DNA of 64,000 bases from Paeniglutamicibacter sp. Y32M11 (lineage in GTDB: Bacteria > Actinomycetota > Actinomycetes > Actinomycetales > Micrococcaceae). The notes under the pieces are model-generated. The model had not been told where the DNA came from. It searched no databases and was given only the letters and a program-made list of their open reading frames with translations. The stretch covers positions 1,674,001 through 1,738,000 of the forward strand of contig NZ_CP079107.1 in NCBI RefSeq assembly GCF_019285735.1. Direction: 5' to 3'. Shown piece after piece: positions 43,052-50,574 of the stretch; position 1 is the first letter of the stretch, and every line of letters begins with the position of its first letter. Both the position numbers and the translations under genes were made by a program.

Positions 43052-44284
43052 ATGACTTCCCACACTCTCGACGAATTGATCGCCGATGGTGTCCAGGGGC
43101 GGCACGTTCTGGTCCGTAGCGACCTGAACGTGCCGCTTGATGGGCTCACCGTCACCGACGACGGGCGCGTACGCGCCTCCATTCCGGTGGTGCAGAAGCT
43201 GGCCGAGGCCGGCGCTCGCGTCATCGTGATGGCCCACTTGGGTCGCCCCAAGGGCGAACCCGACCCCCAGTACTCTATTTCTCCCGCAGCCACCAAGCTG
43301 GCCGAGCTCTCCGGGCTCAACGTGGTTGTTGCCACCGACGTGGTGGGTGCCTCGGCCCAGGAACTGGCAGCCAAGCTCGCCGACGGTTCGGTCCTCGTCT
43401 TGGAAAACGTGCGTTTTGATGCGCGCGAAACCTCCAAGGTCGAATCCGAGCGTGCCGCGCTGGCCGCCGAACTGGCCGCATTAACCGGGGAAAACGGTGC
43501 CTACGTGAACGATGCCTTCGGCGCCGTACACCGCAAGCACGCCTCCGTTTATGACATCGCTGCCTTGCTGCCCGCCTACCAGGGCGACCTGGTGGCCACC
43601 GAGGTGCGGGTGCTCAAGACCCTCACCGAGGCTCCCAAGCGCCCCTACGTGGTGGTTCTTGGCGGTTCAAAGGTCTCGGACAAGCTGGCTGTCATTGACA
43701 ACCTGCTCGGACGCGCCGACCACCTGTTGATCGGTGGCGGCATGGCCTTCACCTTCCTCAAGGCCCTGGGCCACGAGGTGGGCGGCTCGCTGCTGGAAGT
43801 TGATCAGCTCGAGACCTGCCGCGGTTACCTCTCACGAGCCAAGGAACTCGGCTGTGAGATCGTGCTGCCCACCGATGTGGTGGTGGCATCGAAGTTTGGT
43901 GCCGATGCGCTCTCCGAGGTGCGGGCGGCCGACGACATCACCGGTGGTACCTTCGGGGACACCGGCCTGGGCTTGGACATTGGTCCGGATTCCGGGGAGA
44001 AGTTCGCCAGCTACATCCGCAGCGCCAACACGGTGTTCTGGAATGGCCCGATGGGCGTCTTCGAGATCCCGGCGTTTGCCAACGGGACACGTGCCGTGGC
44101 GGGTGCACTGGCCGAATCCGAGGCCTTCAGTGTGGTCGGTGGTGGCGATTCGGCCGCCGCCGTACGCACCCTGGGCTTCAACGATGACGAATTTGGACAC
44201 ATCTCAACCGGCGGCGGTGCCTCCCTCGAATACCTTGAGGGCAAGGAACTGCCGGGTTTGATCGCCCTGGAGGCACGTAAGTGA
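43052..44284 (+). CDS. pgk: Phosphoglycerate kinase
   Basis: 410 residues. The family signature near the N-terminus is [14 protein letters not shown], substrate-binding segments are [13 protein letters not shown] and [16 protein letters not shown], and the nucleotide-binding C-terminal domain has [22 protein letters not shown] and [10 protein letters not shown]. It makes ATP from 1,3-bisphosphoglycerate. The stop shares four bases with the tpiA start (GTGA), so the two are translationally coupled. Confidence 0.98.
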
Positions 44285-45096
44285 CAACATCGACAAACGG
44301 CACCTTCGACCGGAAGCCGCTGATTGCCGGCAACTGGAAGATGAACATGGACCACGTCCAGGGCATCACGCTGCTGCAGAAGTTGGCCTGGACCTTGGCC
44401 GACGCCGAGCATGACTTCGCCCGGGTTGAGGTGGCGGTCTTCCCGCCCTTCACCGACCTGCGCGGGGTACAGACGCTGACCATGGGCGATGATCTCCCGG
44501 TGCGCTACGGCGCCCAGGATCTCTCCGCCCAGGATTCGGGAGCGTACACCGGGGAAATCTCCGGCCAGTTCCTCTCCCGTCTGGGCTGCAGCTACGTCTT
44601 GGTGGGGCACAGTGAACGTCGTGCCCTCCACGGTGAGTCGGACGCGTTGCTGGCCACCAAGGTTGCCGCCGCCTACCGACACGAGCTGACACCGGTGTTG
44701 TGTGTGGGGGAGGGCCTGGAGATTCGTCAGGCCGGAACCCACGTTGAGTACACGCTGGAGCAGCTGCGCGGTTCGCTGGCGGGAATCACCGCCGAGCAGG
44801 CAGCCACACTGGTCATCGCCTACGAGCCGGTCTGGGCCATCGGTACCGGAGAAGTCGCCGGTCCCGAGGACGCACAGGAACTCTGTGCAGCCATCCGCAC
44901 CGAACTCGGGCTGCTCTACGATGCCGACATCGCCTCGAAGGTCCGCGTGCTCTACGGCGGTTCGGTCAAGGCCTCAAACGTTGCCCAGATCCTGGCGCAG
45001 CGCGATGTTGATGGCGTGTTGGTCGGTGGCGCATCACTTGATGCCGCCGAGTTTGCTAATATTGTTAGGTTCGAGCACCACCTGGTGACCGACTAA
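44281..45096 (+). CDS. tpiA: Triosephosphate isomerase
   Basis: 271 residues from the GTG at 44281. The TIM-barrel motifs are all present: [14 protein letters not shown] (substrate Lys), [14 protein letters not shown] (catalytic His), the [20 protein letters not shown] loop (catalytic Glu and flexible loop 6) and [13 protein letters not shown] (phosphate binding). It interconverts dihydroxyacetone phosphate and glyceraldehyde 3-phosphate. It overlaps pgk by four bases. Confidence 0.98.
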
Positions 45097-45124
45097 TCGC
45101 CACCGAGCTGATTGAAGGGCAATT

Positions 45125-45376
45125 ATGGACGTCATCAAGTTGATATTGCAGATCTTGTTGGGCATCACCAGCCTGTTGTTAACACTGCTGATCCTGCTGC
45201 ACAAGGGCCGCGGAGGCGGCATGTCTGACATGTTCGGCGGTGGCATGACCTCATCACTGGGGTCCTCCGGCGTTGCCGAGCGTAACCTCAACCGGGTCAC
45301 GGTCGTCCTGGGTCTGATCTGGGTCGCCGTCATCATCGGCCTGGGACTGCTCATGCGCTTCAGCGTCGAATCCTAA
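45125..45376 (+). CDS. secG: Preprotein translocase subunit SecG
   Basis: 83 residues with two membrane helices (LILQILLGITSLLLTLLILL and VVLGLIWVAVIIGLGLLMRF) joined by the conserved cytoplasmic loop HKGRGGGMSDMFGGGM. SecG is the small accessory subunit of the SecYEG channel. Its location just after tpiA is the usual actinobacterial arrangement. In relatives secG and pgl are next-door convergent genes; here an island separates them. Confidence 0.96.
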   Translation: MDVIKLILQILLGITSLLLTLLILLHKGRGGGMSDMFGGGMTSSLGSSGVAERNLNRVTVVLGLIWVAVIIGLGLLMRFSVES

Positions 45377-45406
45377 TCTTTAGCACCACGCTCTTCTGAG
45401 CACAGC

Positions 45407-45469
45407 AAAAAGCGCGGTCCGCTGAGCTTCCCCTTCAACGGGAACTCAGCGGACCGCGCTTTTGTTTGT
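45407..45469. terminator. Strong terminator after secG (ancestrally shared with pgl)
   Basis: A 19-bp perfect stem AAAAGCGCGGTCCGCTGAG (45408-45426) with 45445-45463, plus an inner TTCCC/GGGAA pairing, flanked by an A-run and by TTTTGTTTGTT. It should work in both directions. The first copy of the 52-bp repeat starts right after it. Confidence 0.9.
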
Positions 45470-45521
45470 TACGCCTAGATCAGGGCGGCCGCTGCCGCAT
45501 CCAGCAGCCACCAGGTACCGG
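45470..45521. repeat. 52-bp direct repeat, left copy (partial pgl 3' end)
   Basis: These 52 bases are identical to 48874-48925. They correspond to the last ~15 codons of pgl, its stop and a few following bases, but the match to pgl stops abruptly at 45522. This is therefore a displaced copy of the pgl 3' end marking the left edge of an insertion. Confidence 0.95.
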
Positions 45522-46602
45522 GGCCTCGAGCGCCAAGCGCAACGGCAGCTAGCGAGAACATGCGCATATCACCAATCACCGCACCACCTAGCCACTGTTT
45601 GAATTGAACAGATTAGAACAGTTAACCAGTACGGAATGGTGTCCTCGGCTAACGTCCGCGCCACGAACCACTTCCAGACCTTCAGCCCAGCAGCCACAGA
45701 GTCGAACACGACCACTCTGGTCAATCACTTGGACAGCACAGAATTTCGTGCAGAGAGGAATCTGTAGTTGTGGCTACGGTCTCGCTGTGAATGTTGACTA
45801 CTTGCATCCAAAGTAGCGAAGTTGAAGACATCATCGAGTCCGAGGTACCGTCCCACTTCATCGGACTTTCCATGCGAAACGCGTTGACGTACTGCGATGC
45901 GGACTCGCAGACCATACAGCCTTTCGCAGCACCCAAGTGTTATACGACCACACCTCCAACACTGCCTACCATCCAGGCACAACTAACCACCGACACAGAG
46001 CCCTAGTTCGTGGCCTGACAGGTGCTCGACGACCTTCTCGCAGTCACCCGTCCCACTATCAACATGAGTCCGTTTCCGAAGGCATACCCGGGCAGTTAGT
46101 GTGCTGCCAGTCCTTGAAGCTGCACGCGCCTCGGATTGGCACCATCTTTTCCATGAGTAGCGAAATGGGCATCGAACAGGGGGCATTGGTTCGATGGATC
46201 GACACCAGCGTTGTGTGTGGACCTGCTTGCAGTCTGCGTCTAGGCTTTGTGCACCGCTTGACAGTAATCTTGCCGTGCTGGAAATTCGAATAGCCAAGCT
46301 ACGCGGAAAATTGTCCAAAGTCTTTGTGCCGCCGACCCCGAGCATTTTCCTGTTCCATGCAACTATTTTTCTAGGACTGTGAATACACGTTTGGCTGAAT
46401 CGACGGTCTGATCCAACTCTTCAGCGGAAAGCTTTGACCCACGACTACCACCTGTATCGTTGCAGCCAAATCGTAAATTCGAGAAAGTGAAAACATCGTC
46501 CTGCTAGATACAAAAGGCTACACTTAGAATAATTTTAATCTTCGTTGGACTCTGACGAGGAAGAGTTTATTGGCATCTGTTGAAAAATAGTTAGGGGTAA
46601 TC
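45522..46602. other. Left part of island, no convincing gene
   Basis: About 1.1 kb between the left repeat and the hydrolase gene. All open frames are short (under 125 codons), lack ribosome-binding sites, and have odd compositions rich in Cys, His, Arg and Thr without any recognised motif. It may hold decayed genes or non-coding RNA. The last ~220 bases are AT-rich and should contain the promoter of the hydrolase operon; AGGGG at 46593-46597 is its ribosome-binding site. Confidence 0.5.
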
Positions 46603-47424
46603 GTGCGACTTAGTCACGAGGAAATTCGTTTAGATGGTGATCACGCAAAAGTAGCTTACGCTGCATCTATTCCACCAAAGCGACTTATTGTATTTATCCA
46701 TGGTTTTCTTGGAAGGGATAAATCATCATGGGGGAATATGGTGGATTTTCCCGAAGGCGAACAGTTTTGGTTAGAGTCAGATCTTTTGTTTGTAGGCTAT
46801 AAAACAATTCAATCCAACCAGTCAATTCAAGGGCTTTCAGGAAACATTCATGAAGAACTGAAGTGTTATTATCCAGCACAGAATAGTAGCATGTACATGT
46901 CTGGTGACTATAAACTTCGTGAGTACAATAATGAAGAATATGAAGAACTATACCTCGTCGGTCACTCGATGGGTGGAGTAATTGTTAAGCAGATTGTTTC
47001 CAACGACGCTGCTAATGTTATAAATAATTTGCAGGAAGAAGTAATATATTCGAATTCTAACGTTCGGTTATTTAGCCCGGCGCATGGGGGGTTTCGGCCA
47101 ATGGGGACATTGTGGCTACTGTGCATGGGGGAGATATTATCTCCCTTCATTTCCTACCTTGCTGATCTTAAGGTTAACTCGCCATATTTAACCGATCTGA
47201 AGGGGCGATGCGATATTTTGGCAAGTCGATTCAGTGTCACCCCGCTGGGCTTGACAAACTTAATTCTATGGGCACGTCCAGAGCATGTCGTTGCCGTAAC
47301 TTCGACAAGTGTTGACGTCGTAATAGGTGAAGTTCGTGGAAAAACTCACACGACCATTTGTAAGCCGTCAAGTTCTTATGTAACCCCTTGGACCTTTATT
47401 CAAAGTGATGGTGTGAAGAAATGA
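46603..47424 (+). CDS. Serine alpha/beta hydrolase (lipase/esterase-like), island gene A
   Basis: 273 residues from the GTG at 46603. The oxyanion segment LIVFIHGFLGRDKSSWG has His33-Gly34-Phe35, and the nucleophile elbow is LVGHSMGGVIVKQ with Ser122. A candidate acid is Asp238 and the catalytic His is His249 in GKTHTTICKPSS; the H-x-x-I-x-K-P form is common in SERAC1/DUF676-like hydrolases. No signal peptide is present, so it is predicted to be cytoplasmic. It overlaps gene B by four bases (ATGA), implying joint function. Codons are A/T-rich, unlike the flanks. A lipase-like effector acting on membrane lipids is one possibility but is not shown by the sequence. Confidence 0.85.
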   Translation: MRLSHEEIRLDGDHAKVAYAASIPPKRLIVFIHGFLGRDKSSWGNMVDFPEGEQFWLESDLLFVGYKTIQSNQSIQGLSGNIHEELKCYYPAQNSSMYMSGDYKLREYNNEEYEELYLVGHSMGGVIVKQIVSNDAANVINNLQEEVIYSNSNVRLFSPAHGGFRPMGTLWLLCMGEILSPFISYLADLKVNSPYLTDLKGRCDILASRFSVTPLGLTNLILWARPEHVVAVTSTSVDVVIGEVRGKTHTTICKPSSSYVTPWTFIQSDGVKK

Positions 47425-48701
47425 CTATAGAAGGATTTCGTCTCAACAACTTTGATCAATTTGTACTTAAGGTCAGAGGGAGTCTCGCATTAAACCCCTT
47501 GAAATATATTGAGGCTGTTCAAGTTAGAATCTTGGAAGAGCTGGGCGAATGGCGCCGCCTTGGAAGTGAAATTGGATATTTCCCTCTAGATTCCATCGCC
47601 ACTAGCAAGCCGGTGGAGGATCGGGCGATACTGGAAATTTTCCGCAGACAGCTATCCTATTCGATGGACTTGTTGGAACCGGATGACATTAAAGCGATTG
47701 GATTAATTTTCTACGCGGATGATTCTGAATGGAAAAAGCAGATTATGATACTTCGAAGGTGCTTAAGTCTTCGTTCTAAGTTTGCTGGCGTCAAGGACGG
47801 TGATCGCCCGGAGTATGGTAGTAGCTTGGGGCAATTAGATGAACTACTTGATCAAATTTCATGGATAAGCTCGTACTATATAAGCGATATTATTGATGGT
47901 CGAGAGTTCACTTCCGGATACCCTTCTGACTGGCGGTTTGCAACGAATGAACTAATAGATACTCGCATTGATCAACTGCAGAAGTTCGTTCAAGCTCTTG
48001 CAAAACGGGCAAGGAAGTCTCGAGAAAGTAATGCAGCCGAAAGTTTCGTTGAGGGAAAGCTAGGCAGTGCATCTGTCCGTGTTCATGAGAATCTGATTTC
48101 GAAGTCACATCAAAAAAGTTCGCTGTTGATTCCCGCGCGCAGGCGCAACCTCGGGCGATGGTCGCCCAAGGTGACGGAACGTTCGTTCAGAATGCGAGCG
48201 TTTGATAGCTTTCCAAAGCGAACAGGGCGGAAATTGATTGATCATTTGAACTCGTTACCTGGTTCGACTTTAAAGTCTGTAGTTCGTGAAAACAATATAT
48301 TTGTCGCGAGTATGAAGTCAGAATCACCCGAGAGCCTTGTTTTTCGTGAGAACATTCTAAAAGATCTGGCGGTCGACCCAAAGCAAGTAAAATTCCTGAA
48401 TGTGAGCGTTGAGGCGAAATCTTCGGGCAAGAAAGTGATTGGACCGTTGGGTGAGGAGATCGTACATATTTCGTCAGCAACTGTTGCAGGGCTGTGGGAA
48501 AAAGTGTCATCTGAGGTCAGGAAATCTGGCTCGAAGGTTGTCGTTGTCGGCGGAGATAGAGTGTCCGTTGAAGTTACCAAATCTGCAGTGCGACTCGTTG
48601 ATTCTAAGAACGGCGCCGAAATCCGAGTTATAGGAAAGGGGCGAGGAAGCGATGGCCTTCGTGCTCCGCTGGTGTTTGTCAATTCGACTCAAGTGAATTG
48701 A
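47421..48701 (+). CDS. Unknown protein, island gene B (partner of hydrolase)
   Basis: 426 residues, no family recognised. Residues ~1-210 look mostly helical and charged (for example KYIEAVQVRILEELGEWRRL and IDTRIDQLQKFVQALAKRAR). A basic linker follows (LLIPARRRNLGRWSPKVTER), then a likely mixed alpha/beta C-terminal part with a strand-rich end (SKVVVVGGDRVSVEVTKSAV and RLVDSKNGAEIRVIGKGRG). No membrane segment, signal peptide, P-loop or nuclease motif was seen. The ATG lies in the stop of gene A. The strict coupling suggests that B regulates, recruits or neutralises the hydrolase; that is inference. Confidence 0.8.
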   Translation: MTIEGFRLNNFDQFVLKVRGSLALNPLKYIEAVQVRILEELGEWRRLGSEIGYFPLDSIATSKPVEDRAILEIFRRQLSYSMDLLEPDDIKAIGLIFYADDSEWKKQIMILRRCLSLRSKFAGVKDGDRPEYGSSLGQLDELLDQISWISSYYISDIIDGREFTSGYPSDWRFATNELIDTRIDQLQKFVQALAKRARKSRESNAAESFVEGKLGSASVRVHENLISKSHQKSSLLIPARRRNLGRWSPKVTERSFRMRAFDSFPKRTGRKLIDHLNSLPGSTLKSVVRENNIFVASMKSESPESLVFRENILKDLAVDPKQVKFLNVSVEAKSSGKKVIGPLGEEIVHISSATVAGLWEKVSSEVRKSGSKVVVVGGDRVSVEVTKSAVRLVDSKNGAEIRVIGKGRGSDGLRAPLVFVNSTQVN

Positions 48702-48873
48702 TCGCCGCGAAGCGCTTGACTGTGCTCTTTAGCACTGTTCCATAATTCAACAAAGCTCGCTAGGTCAGGCGGTATTTGTTCCGTCAATTGTGCCGTGGCT
48801 AGGCCGACTTGGTCCTTGAAGCAGCAGGAATTTTTTGCGGCATCGCAAGGACGCCAAGTTGAACAGGCAACCC
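48702..48873. other. Right end of island, non-coding
   Basis: 172 bases between gene B and the right repeat. It contains a weak hairpin (GTGCT-CTTT-AGCAC, 48722-48735) that might end gene B transcription. No strong terminator facing pgl is visible. Confidence 0.4.
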
Positions 48874-48925
48874 TACGCCTAGATCAGGGCGGCCGCTGCC
48901 GCATCCAGCAGCCACCAGGTACCGG
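48874..48925. repeat. 52-bp direct repeat, right copy (native pgl 3' end)
   Basis: Identical to 45470-45521. This copy is continuous with the intact pgl gene and supplies its last codons and stop (48879-48881). Confidence 0.95.
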
Positions 48926-49649
48926 TTCTGCCCGACACGCCCGAAGCCGGAACTCGTTCGCGGGTCACCGGCGTCTGGCCCAGGGCCACACCGGCGGCCG
49001 GCGCCTTGTCCGCCCCGGCCACCACCAGCCACACGGCGCGGGCGGAATTGATGGCCTCAAAACTCAAGGACACGCGCAACGGTGGCGGCTTGGGTGAAGC
49101 GTGCACCCCGATGACATGGGCGCCGGTGGTTGCCGCTCCCACATGATCGGGGAAGAGCGAGGCCACGTGGGAATCCGGGCCCATGCCCAGCATCAACACA
49201 TCGAAGATCGGCAGTTCTCCGGGTGTGCCCTCGTTCGACGCCTCTTCGGCCAAGACGTTCGCGTAGGCCACGGCAGCCTCCTCGGGAGTGCCGAAGTCAT
49301 CGGTTGAACCCATGACGTGCACCCGGCCGCGATCGAGGCCGTGGCCATCAAGCACCGAGAGCAAGACCTCCGCCTGGACCGCGTTGCGATCAGCGGAGTT
49401 GGATTCGACAAAGCGTTCATCTCCCCAATAGATGTTCACTCGCGACCAATCGACCGCACTCAGCGCGGGGGAGGCGGCCACCTGAGCCAGCGAGGCGATG
49501 CCCAGCGTGCCGCCGGTGAGTACCACGCTGGCCTCACCGCGGGCTGCCTGAGCGTCGATGATGGCGGTGATGAGCCGGGCGGCGATGGCCGCGGCGGTGC
49601 TGGGGAGATCCGGGTGGATCACCACGTGGCGTTTAGCGTTCACTGGCAC
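48879..49649 (-). CDS. pgl: 6-phosphogluconolactonase
   Basis: 256 residues from the GTG at 49649 (a second in-frame GTG follows at 49643). Family segments include RHVVIHPDLPSTAAAIAARL, VVLTGGTLGIASLAQVAAS, WSRVNIYWGDERFVESNSAD and DVLMLGMGPDSHVASLFPDH. The enzyme opens 6-phosphogluconolactone in the oxidative pentose-phosphate pathway. It overlaps opcA by 17 bases and ends the tkt-tal-pgi-zwf-opcA-pgl series. Its last codons form the repeat used by the island, and the protein is unchanged by the insertion. Confidence 0.96.
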   Translation of the reverse strand: MPVNAKRHVVIHPDLPSTAAAIAARLITAIIDAQAARGEASVVLTGGTLGIASLAQVAASPALSAVDWSRVNIYWGDERFVESNSADRNAVQAEVLLSVLDGHGLDRGRVHVMGSTDDFGTPEEAAVAYANVLAEEASNEGTPGELPIFDVLMLGMGPDSHVASLFPDHVGAATTGAHVIGVHASPKPPPLRVSLSFEAINSARAVWLVVAGADKAPAAGVALGQTPVTRERVPASGVSGRTGTWWLLDAAAAALI

Positions 49650-50574
49650 GGATGCTCCTCAGGTTGGTGAGTTTCAGTCCCTCACGCACCACCTCGCCAA
49701 AGAGCTCGTCCGGGTCTAGTCGGCGCATCTCCTCGGAGAGGCAGTCGGAGACCGAACGTTGTGGCAGGGAAATGAGTTGAGCCTTTTGCCCCGGCTGGTA
49801 CAGCTCGGCCACATCCCCCGGTGGGCGGCTGAGTTCCACGTCCCCGGCCGTGCGGCAGAAGCGCACCGAACGAACGCCGGTGCCCTCGGGTGTCGAGGCC
49901 AGGGTGACGGGGATGCGCAGGCGCAGCCGCAGCCAGGCGGCCAGCAGCACCGTTGAGGGTGAATCCACCGCTCCGGTGACGGTGGCCGAGGTGACTAGGG
50001 CCGGGTCCAACTGGTCAAAGACCGAAGCCAGCTGGGCACGCCAGAGGGTCAGTCGGGTCCATGCCAGATCGGTGTCTCCGGCACGGTAGGTCTCGGCCAG
50101 CGAGAAGAGCGCGGCGCGCGGGTCCTCCTCGGCACCGGAATCGGTGATGCGGCGGTGCGCGATACGGCCCAGCGGGGTATTGGCCGCATCGGCCGGCACC
50201 CCATGCGGCCACCAGGCCACGATCGGGGCGTCGGGCAACAGCAAACCGGAGACCAGGGATTCATCCACCTTGGCGTCGGGGCCAAAGGTGTGCAGCACGA
50301 TGACTTCGGCGGCACCTGCCTCGCCACCGAGACGAATCTGCGCGTCGAGTCGAGTCTCCTCGGTGGGATCGCCCTGAACGATCACCACAATGCGGCAAGG
50401 GTGTTCGCGGCTGGCCAACGCGGCGGCCGAGATGGCGGCTTCCTCGAAGCCGGCACGGGTGATCACCAGCAGGGTCAGTACGCGCGAGAGCGCGGAGGAA
50501 CCACCGGCGCTGCGCATCGTGACCAATTTCTTGGAGATCTTCGAGGTGGTGGTGTCCTGCATCTGCACAATCAT
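49633..50574 (-). CDS. opcA: Glucose-6-phosphate dehydrogenase assembly protein OpcA
   Basis: 313 residues from the ATG at 50574 (MIVQMQDTTTSKISKKLVTM), chosen because it overlaps the zwf stop as ATGA; an ATG four codons upstream is possible. Characteristic segments are ASREHPCRIVVIVQGDP, LLLPDAPIVAWWPHGVP and DTDLAWTRLTLWRAQLASVF. In cyanobacteria and actinobacteria OpcA activates or assembles the glucose-6-phosphate dehydrogenase encoded next to it. Its fixed place between zwf and pgl is typical. Confidence 0.95.
   Translation of the reverse strand: MIVQMQDTTTSKISKKLVTMRSAGGSSALSRVLTLLVITRAGFEEAAISAAALASREHPCRIVVIVQGDPTEETRLDAQIRLGGEAGAAEVIVLHTFGPDAKVDESLVSGLLLPDAPIVAWWPHGVPADAANTPLGRIAHRRITDSGAEEDPRAALFSLAETYRAGDTDLAWTRLTLWRAQLASVFDQLDPALVTSATVTGAVDSPSTVLLAAWLRLRLRIPVTLASTPEGTGVRSVRFCRTAGDVELSRPPGDVAELYQPGQKAQLISLPQRSVSDCLSEEMRRLDPDELFGEVVREGLKLTNLRSIRASER

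Follow-up and report, generated by a model that had tools for sequence, protein, structure and literature searches.

A 3.4-kb island at the 3′ end of pgl in Paeniglutamicibacter sp. Y32M11, most likely the relic of a mobile element carrying a hydrolase gene and its partner

The pgl locus and its insert

We analyzed a 64-kb stretch of DNA (hereafter, the window) corresponding to positions 1,674,001–1,738,000 of the 4.17-Mb single-contig genome of Paeniglutamicibacter sp. Y32M11; positions below are those of the window. An island of foreign DNA, bounded by a direct repeat, lies there between secG and pgl. The gene pgl (48879–49649, minus strand) is intact and encodes a 6-phosphogluconolactonase of 256 aa (TIGR01198; E = 4.8e-56). 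Positions 45470–45521 and 48874–48925 are identical (52/52 nt) and constitute the sole exact direct repeat of at least 24 nt within the window. The right copy, which resembles a right attachment site (attR), is the working 3′ end of pgl: it comprises the final 47 bases of the gene, including the stop codon, and five bases past it. The left, attL-like copy is a displaced pgl 3′ end whose outer flank runs to the secG side, just past a hairpin downstream of secG; from position 45522 onward the sequence is unrelated. An earlier sequence-only reading of this DNA had described the identity of the two copies, the right one as the true end of pgl and the left one departing from it at 45522, and our repeat search and the TIGR01198 gene call confirm this description.

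When the window flanks are joined over one repeat copy, their alignment with the closest relative (genome G014, locus L003) spans 2,697 columns, with 96.4% identity and a single gap. This relative thus presents an empty site, from which we obtain an insert of 3,404 bp that spared pgl. The gene is present in all 15 genomes of the genus, including the window's own, and tpi, secG and pgl occur together at the locus in 14/14 same-genus relatives. Eleven of these 14 relatives have 71–100 bp between secG and the end of pgl; the remaining distances are 247, 599 and 614 bp. A scan of this interval for the terminal 30 bp of pgl (threshold: 20/30) detected no second copy in any of the 14, and it gave the left copy of the window a score of 30/30. 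Foreign DNA is inserted precisely at the 3′ end of pgl, and the gene is spared. The sequence-only reading had recommended this comparison of the secG–pgl junction and had seen in the locus the signature of gene-sparing site-specific integration: the empty site of G014 and the single pgl end of all 14 relatives bear out the precise 3′-end insertion, whereas the site specificity is deduced from the anatomy of the locus.

At the positions where the repeat core differs from G014, the two copies of the window agree with each other, which suggests, as a weak indication of age, that the repeat is young or has been homogenised. By eye, the differences from G014 are denser in and beside the repeat (45463–45521 and 48926–48930) than across the 2.7 kb aligned; these could represent attachment (att) sequence derived from the element.

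Other readings of the locus were rejected. The sequence-only reading had named a decayed copy of pgl in 45522–46602 as a finding that would refute integration, and no such copy was found: a tblastn search with pgl gives a single match in the island locus (L001), and the listing of repeats contains no further pgl repeat there. A transposon was discarded because no inverted repeat of at least 14 nt links the ends of the island and a 52-bp duplication is too long. No tRNA gene that could have served as target lies within 44000–50000, and the single Rfam match, which is below threshold (E = 0.82), falls in secG, outside the island.

The island contains two clear open reading frames (ORFs; 46603–47424 and 47421–48701) that overlap by four bases. 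Their GC-content is 42% and 46%, relative to 54% in the gene-poor left 0.8 kb and 61% in the window. The earlier description of about 3.4 kb of lower-GC DNA with two clear genes holds for the size and the genes, and the drop in GC-content mainly concerns the right two thirds. The left part (45522–46602) presents no recognisable gene in a six-frame Pfam scan and no DNA match in phages or plasmids. The right non-coding end (48702–48873) is overlapped by two ORFs (48795–49097, plus strand; 48799–49032, minus strand) in which no family was found. On the chromosomal side of the left junction, the hairpin between secG and pgl (45408–45463; 24-nt arms, 92% complementary) is also found in G014. It presents A and T runs on both sides and the genes secG and pgl are convergent; it is probably a two-way terminator common to both. 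Because the island now lies between pgl and this hairpin, pgl transcripts may read antisense into the island genes.

The hydrolase, its partner and their relatives

The first gene of the island (46603–47424, plus strand) encodes a protein of 273 aa that we annotate as a phospholipase-like alpha/beta (serine) hydrolase. Its Pfam matches are weak and all fall under the curated cut-offs (best: PGAP1, E = 8e-4). An H-S-x-G motif with Ser122, as well as His249, is invariant in 10/10 aligned relatives, and a profile built from 10 hydrolases matches one solved protein, the phospholipase PlaB (6zth; E = 4e-4). This match weakly suggests a lipid-cutting role. Relatives of the hydrolase (30–32% identity) were found on three plasmids, one typed as conjugative, one as mobilizable and one as non-mobilizable, which indicates that such cargo travels. 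No relative was confirmed in viral contigs using the hydrolase profile.

The second gene (47421–48701, plus strand) encodes a partner protein of 426 aa. Its start codon lies in the stop codon of the first gene (ATGA), so the two are probably translated together. The partner presents no significant family match, and searching plasmids, phages and genome contigs with this single sequence retrieved nothing. In both plasmids that were opened, from Pseudarthrobacter sp. Fe7 (CP099978.1) and Rhodococcus sp. YL-1 (NZ_CP017300.1), the hydrolase gene is followed by a gene encoding 306 aa. The Pseudarthrobacter partner is related to residues 37–199 of the window partner (E = 4e-5 in a single comparison; score reached by 0/1000 shuffles), and the C-terminal part of the latter is without known relative. 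The Pseudarthrobacter and Rhodococcus partners are also related to each other (0/1000 shuffles), and the comparison of the window partner with the Rhodococcus partner is no better than noise (39/1000 shuffles). The genes upstream on the plasmids that we tested are unrelated to one another and to the left part of the island, and we accordingly rejected the idea that this part is what remains of a gene from the plasmid operon.

The hydrolase profile detected 17 loci in genome contigs. In the eight that we judge best placed (L021–L028; E ≤ 1e-13), a gene on the same strand comes next, within 12 bp or overlapping; L021 is the same Pseudarthrobacter plasmid. The other nine loci are mixed, with the hydrolase itself listed twice as the next gene. 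The protein encoded right after the hydrolase relative in a metagenome-assembled genome of Mucilaginibacter (L022:7415–8833) carries a C-terminal TIR domain (E = 7.9e-21). In Pedobacter chitinilyticus (L023:10723–12645), the partner ends in EF-G domains III, IV and V, joined to about 335 aa of unknown sequence, and has no match to the EF-G GTPase domain. The six Bacteroidota partners compared by profile show no detectable relation to the actinobacterial ones (hhalign probability of 0.2%; best hmmsearch E = 0.11), and we rejected on this profile comparison the joint alignment of partners as one adaptor family across phyla. The conserved features are thus the hydrolase and the gene layout.

Prokaryotic conflict systems use as effectors TIR domains and alpha/beta hydrolases, the latter interpreted as attacking membrane lipids (PMC7159879, PMC8195603), and we read the cargo on this basis. 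By analogy, the two genes may form a conflict module directed against membranes, in which the hydrolase would be under the control of the partner; an immune-type role is a guess. A search of both island proteins with PADLOC (E ≤ 1) returned no family of a known anti-phage system. The same tool, applied to five Bacteroidota neighbours together with the partners and a hydrolase, returned one large helicase that matched many models. A defence neighbourhood in Bacteroidota was rejected: ten neighbour proteins are mixed and mostly ordinary based on Pfam. The portions of the literature that were accessible name no hydrolase–partner pair of this kind, either with TIR or EF-G domains or among effector-associated hydrolases.

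Distribution, recombinase search and origin of the island

The island is present once in its own genome. In the following presence searches (island DNA, partner and hydrolase), scoring was restricted to the top candidates from a permissive initial screen. The island DNA was found in 1/395 genomes of the family, the partner protein in 1/198 relatives and the hydrolase in 1/296 genomes of the phylum, in each case the window's own genome. With the 10-row hydrolase profile (E ≤ 1e-8), 2/394 genomes of the class were positive, one of them the window's own.

We then considered how the pgl site is used in the family, where 350/390 genomes present a pgl match. Among the about 150 pgl matches listed, we surveyed the gap between tpi and pgl in 135 genomes outside the genus, leaving out its 15 members. 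In 115 of them this gap does not exceed 1,100 bp, and it ranges from 1.4 to 14.8 kb in the other 20. A second pgl end (at least 22/30) was present in none of these 20 wide-gap loci, all of which were fetched. Eighteen of the 20 (L058–L075) correspond to all sampled members of one genus (g23), with intervals of 1.4–14.8 kb and without pgl repeats; because every sampled member is wide-gapped, the additional genes seem to belong to the normal gene repertoire. The remaining two (L056 and L057, from G096 and G510) carry about 11 kb between secG and pgl, which by eye resembles siderophore synthesis; they represent 2/9 sampled genomes of another genus (g8), the other seven having no more than 1,100 bp between tpi and pgl. 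The sequence-only reading had suggested looking for other cargo at pgl, and neither another occupied pgl site nor any other repeat-bounded island was seen among the 20 wide-gap family loci.

No integrase or other recombinase, excisionase, relaxase or transfer family was detected in the ORFs of the island or in the six frames of its left 1.1 kb, where the lone Pfam match has an E-value of 0.13. The earlier statement that no integrase is visible was therefore upheld. The only PHROGs matches have E = 0.23 and 0.32, both of unknown function, and nine small ORFs present no match. The ORF and six-frame scans revealed none of the int, rep and tra genes of an actinomycete integrative and conjugative element (AICE), and the PHROGs and Pfam scans revealed neither an integrase nor the phage-derived genes of a phage satellite similar to phage-inducible chromosomal islands (PICI-like).

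The host genome contains two PF00589 proteins, Xer-like by sequence and by neighbours, which we take to be XerD and XerC. Integrative mobile elements exploiting Xer (IMEX) insert at dif and have a dif-like core; here the insertion is at pgl, and the core is not dif-like in appearance. Two PF00239 proteins were also found, a resolvase of 195 aa and a large serine recombinase of 554 aa located about 275 kb from the island. No repeat-like sequence occurs in the 20 kb around the latter (best: 28/52). Some 10.7 kb containing unassigned ORFs separates these two genes (L080:1634–14560), and this region is possibly another integrated element.

We consider it probable that the element entered by recombination at the end of pgl and that it now represents a relic similar to a cis-mobilizable element (CIME), with two intact genes and a recombinase that is gone or was supplied elsewhere. 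This explanation is favoured because the exact 52-nt repeat is unique in the window, the site is empty in the closest relative, the pgl end is single in 14/14 relatives, the island DNA is found in 1/395 genomes, the two genes are low in GC, no inverted repeat of at least 14 nt joins the ends and relatives of the hydrolase reside on plasmids. In such a scenario, a small foreign element would have carried a segment identical to the 3′ end of pgl as its attachment segment. The recombination, most likely catalysed by an integrase of the tyrosine type, would have kept pgl whole and placed a 52-bp copy on either side of the insert. The enzyme would then have been lost (the gene-less left 1.1 kb could have held it) or supplied from elsewhere, and the phospholipase-like hydrolase and its co-translated partner would be the remainder. 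A site-specific tyrosine recombinase is the most likely agent because tyrosine integrases have been reported to use identical att segments of similar length at the ends of genes. Serine-integrase sites usually share far shorter cores. The region 45522–46602 is possibly the place where the recombinase gene decayed, and the element is presumably immobile now.

Several observations count against this explanation. No integrase, excisionase or arm-type site was identified in the island, and the six frames of the left part, which may be ordinary non-coding DNA, gave no family. Arm-type sites are not claimed: repeats between the island ends are at the level of shuffled sequences in direct orientation and marginal in inverted orientation (scores reached by 2/30 and 1/30 shuffles at 17 and 21 nt; six tests). 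Since no second element was found at pgl, its specificity as a site also rests on one case.

The sequence-only reading had proposed either a cargo mobilised in trans or a remnant, and our results favour the remnant. Under the first proposal, the cassette never had a recombinase and was moved by a helper (a phage, a plasmid or an integrative element) using the pgl site; its compactness, its two intact genes and the exact repeats would agree with this, and the helper would have to come from outside because the PF00589 proteins of the host are Xer-like. However, neither a helper nor another occupied pgl site was found, 20/20 wide-gap loci lack a second pgl end, and the island DNA is private to one of 395 genomes. 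No convincing phage-type attachment site (attP) was detected in phages, plasmids or viral contigs either. Among the matches listed, the pgl end gave a best phage E-value of 5e-3, in pgl outside the repeat, with one match at E = 3 overlapping the repeat, and all plasmid matches had E ≥ 0.8; 18 bases of the repeat had no exact match in viral contigs, where pgl itself was also not found. Mobilisation in trans is unlikely on this evidence. The boldest version, in which a still-mobile minimal cassette docks at pgl through a helper integrase and spreads an undescribed two-gene immune module with interchangeable partners (TIR-tailed, EF-G-tailed or unknown), is the least probable of all the scenarios discussed here.

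Two further routes are rated lower. A circular DNA that had acquired the pgl end could have entered through a single crossover, which also leaves direct repeats. Perfect identity over 52 bp is within reach of rare homologous recombination, and relatives of the cargo do occur on plasmids. Yet the ORF and six-frame scans revealed no replication or transfer gene in the island, and this route needs the chance pick-up of just the end of pgl, a segment that integrases as a rule carry; we rate it below mobilisation in trans. Alternatively, a staggered break at the end of pgl could have been filled in and foreign DNA captured between the copies by end-joining. Such an accident can generate direct duplications of any length without a recombinase, and none is present. 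Nevertheless, the duplication covers a gene end as those of integrases do, a filled overhang of 52 bp would be long, and the two genes of the cargo form an operon also carried by plasmids, which makes a repair accident more doubtful still.

Comparison with known systems

The closest counterparts of a relic left by recombination at pgl are CIMEs, which keep attL and attR, lack integration and transfer genes and carry cargo (PMC5704250, PMC7563491). Classical CIMEs measure 1.2–13 kb and are frequent in streptococci (PMC7563491). The pgl island is similar in that it keeps attL/attR-like repeats, has no recognisable integration or transfer genes, carries cargo and, with 3.4 kb, falls within this range. 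The retention of attL and attR is seen in the exact 52-bp repeats and the empty site, their att identity being deduced, and the loss of integration and transfer genes is indistinguishable here from never having had them. Composite islands of this type also sit at the 3′ ends of protein genes, namely rpmG, rpsI, fda and rplL (PMC7563491), and islands such as SGI1 occupy that of trmE (PMC8409611). A protein-coding target is thus less unusual than the sequence-only reading had implied. The pgl island differs in residing in an actinobacterium and alone, not in tandem with an integrative and conjugative element (ICE) or an integrative and mobilizable element (IME). No parent ICE or IME with a pgl site was found in family genomes, phages, plasmids or viral contigs. 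The likeness to islands of the SGI1 type lies in the choice of a protein-gene 3′ end; such islands carry their own integrase, whereas the pgl island has no recognisable one.

AICEs (PMC3218068, PMC3364876) resemble the island in the length of their direct repeat and in its location at the 3′ end of a gene, as in the actinomycete element pACPL, whose att identity segments at a tRNA gene measure 43 nt (PMC3364876). Unlike them, the pgl island lacks int, rep and tra, and its target is a protein gene instead of a tRNA gene. The accessible parts of the literature searched mention no integration site at pgl, and one may still be in print. The island extends the set of protein genes whose 3′ ends accept foreign DNA without damage to an actinobacterial pgl.

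The cargo is the more useful outcome: the hydrolase–partner pair is rare in the class, occurs on plasmids and has TIR- and EF-G-tailed partners in Bacteroidota, and it constitutes a directly testable candidate conflict module. The plasmid pairs (CP099978.1 and NZ_CP017300.1) share with the island the order of hydrolase and partner, with hydrolases respectively 33% and 32% identical to that of the window, but their partners measure 306 aa relative to 426 aa, and the Rhodococcus partner is not significantly similar. Compared with described conflict systems, the island shows no recognisable NTPase, caspase or known adaptor domain, and the link is by analogy. Taken together, the island is most likely a relic, left stranded, of a mobile element whose general kind is known and whose cargo has been little studied.

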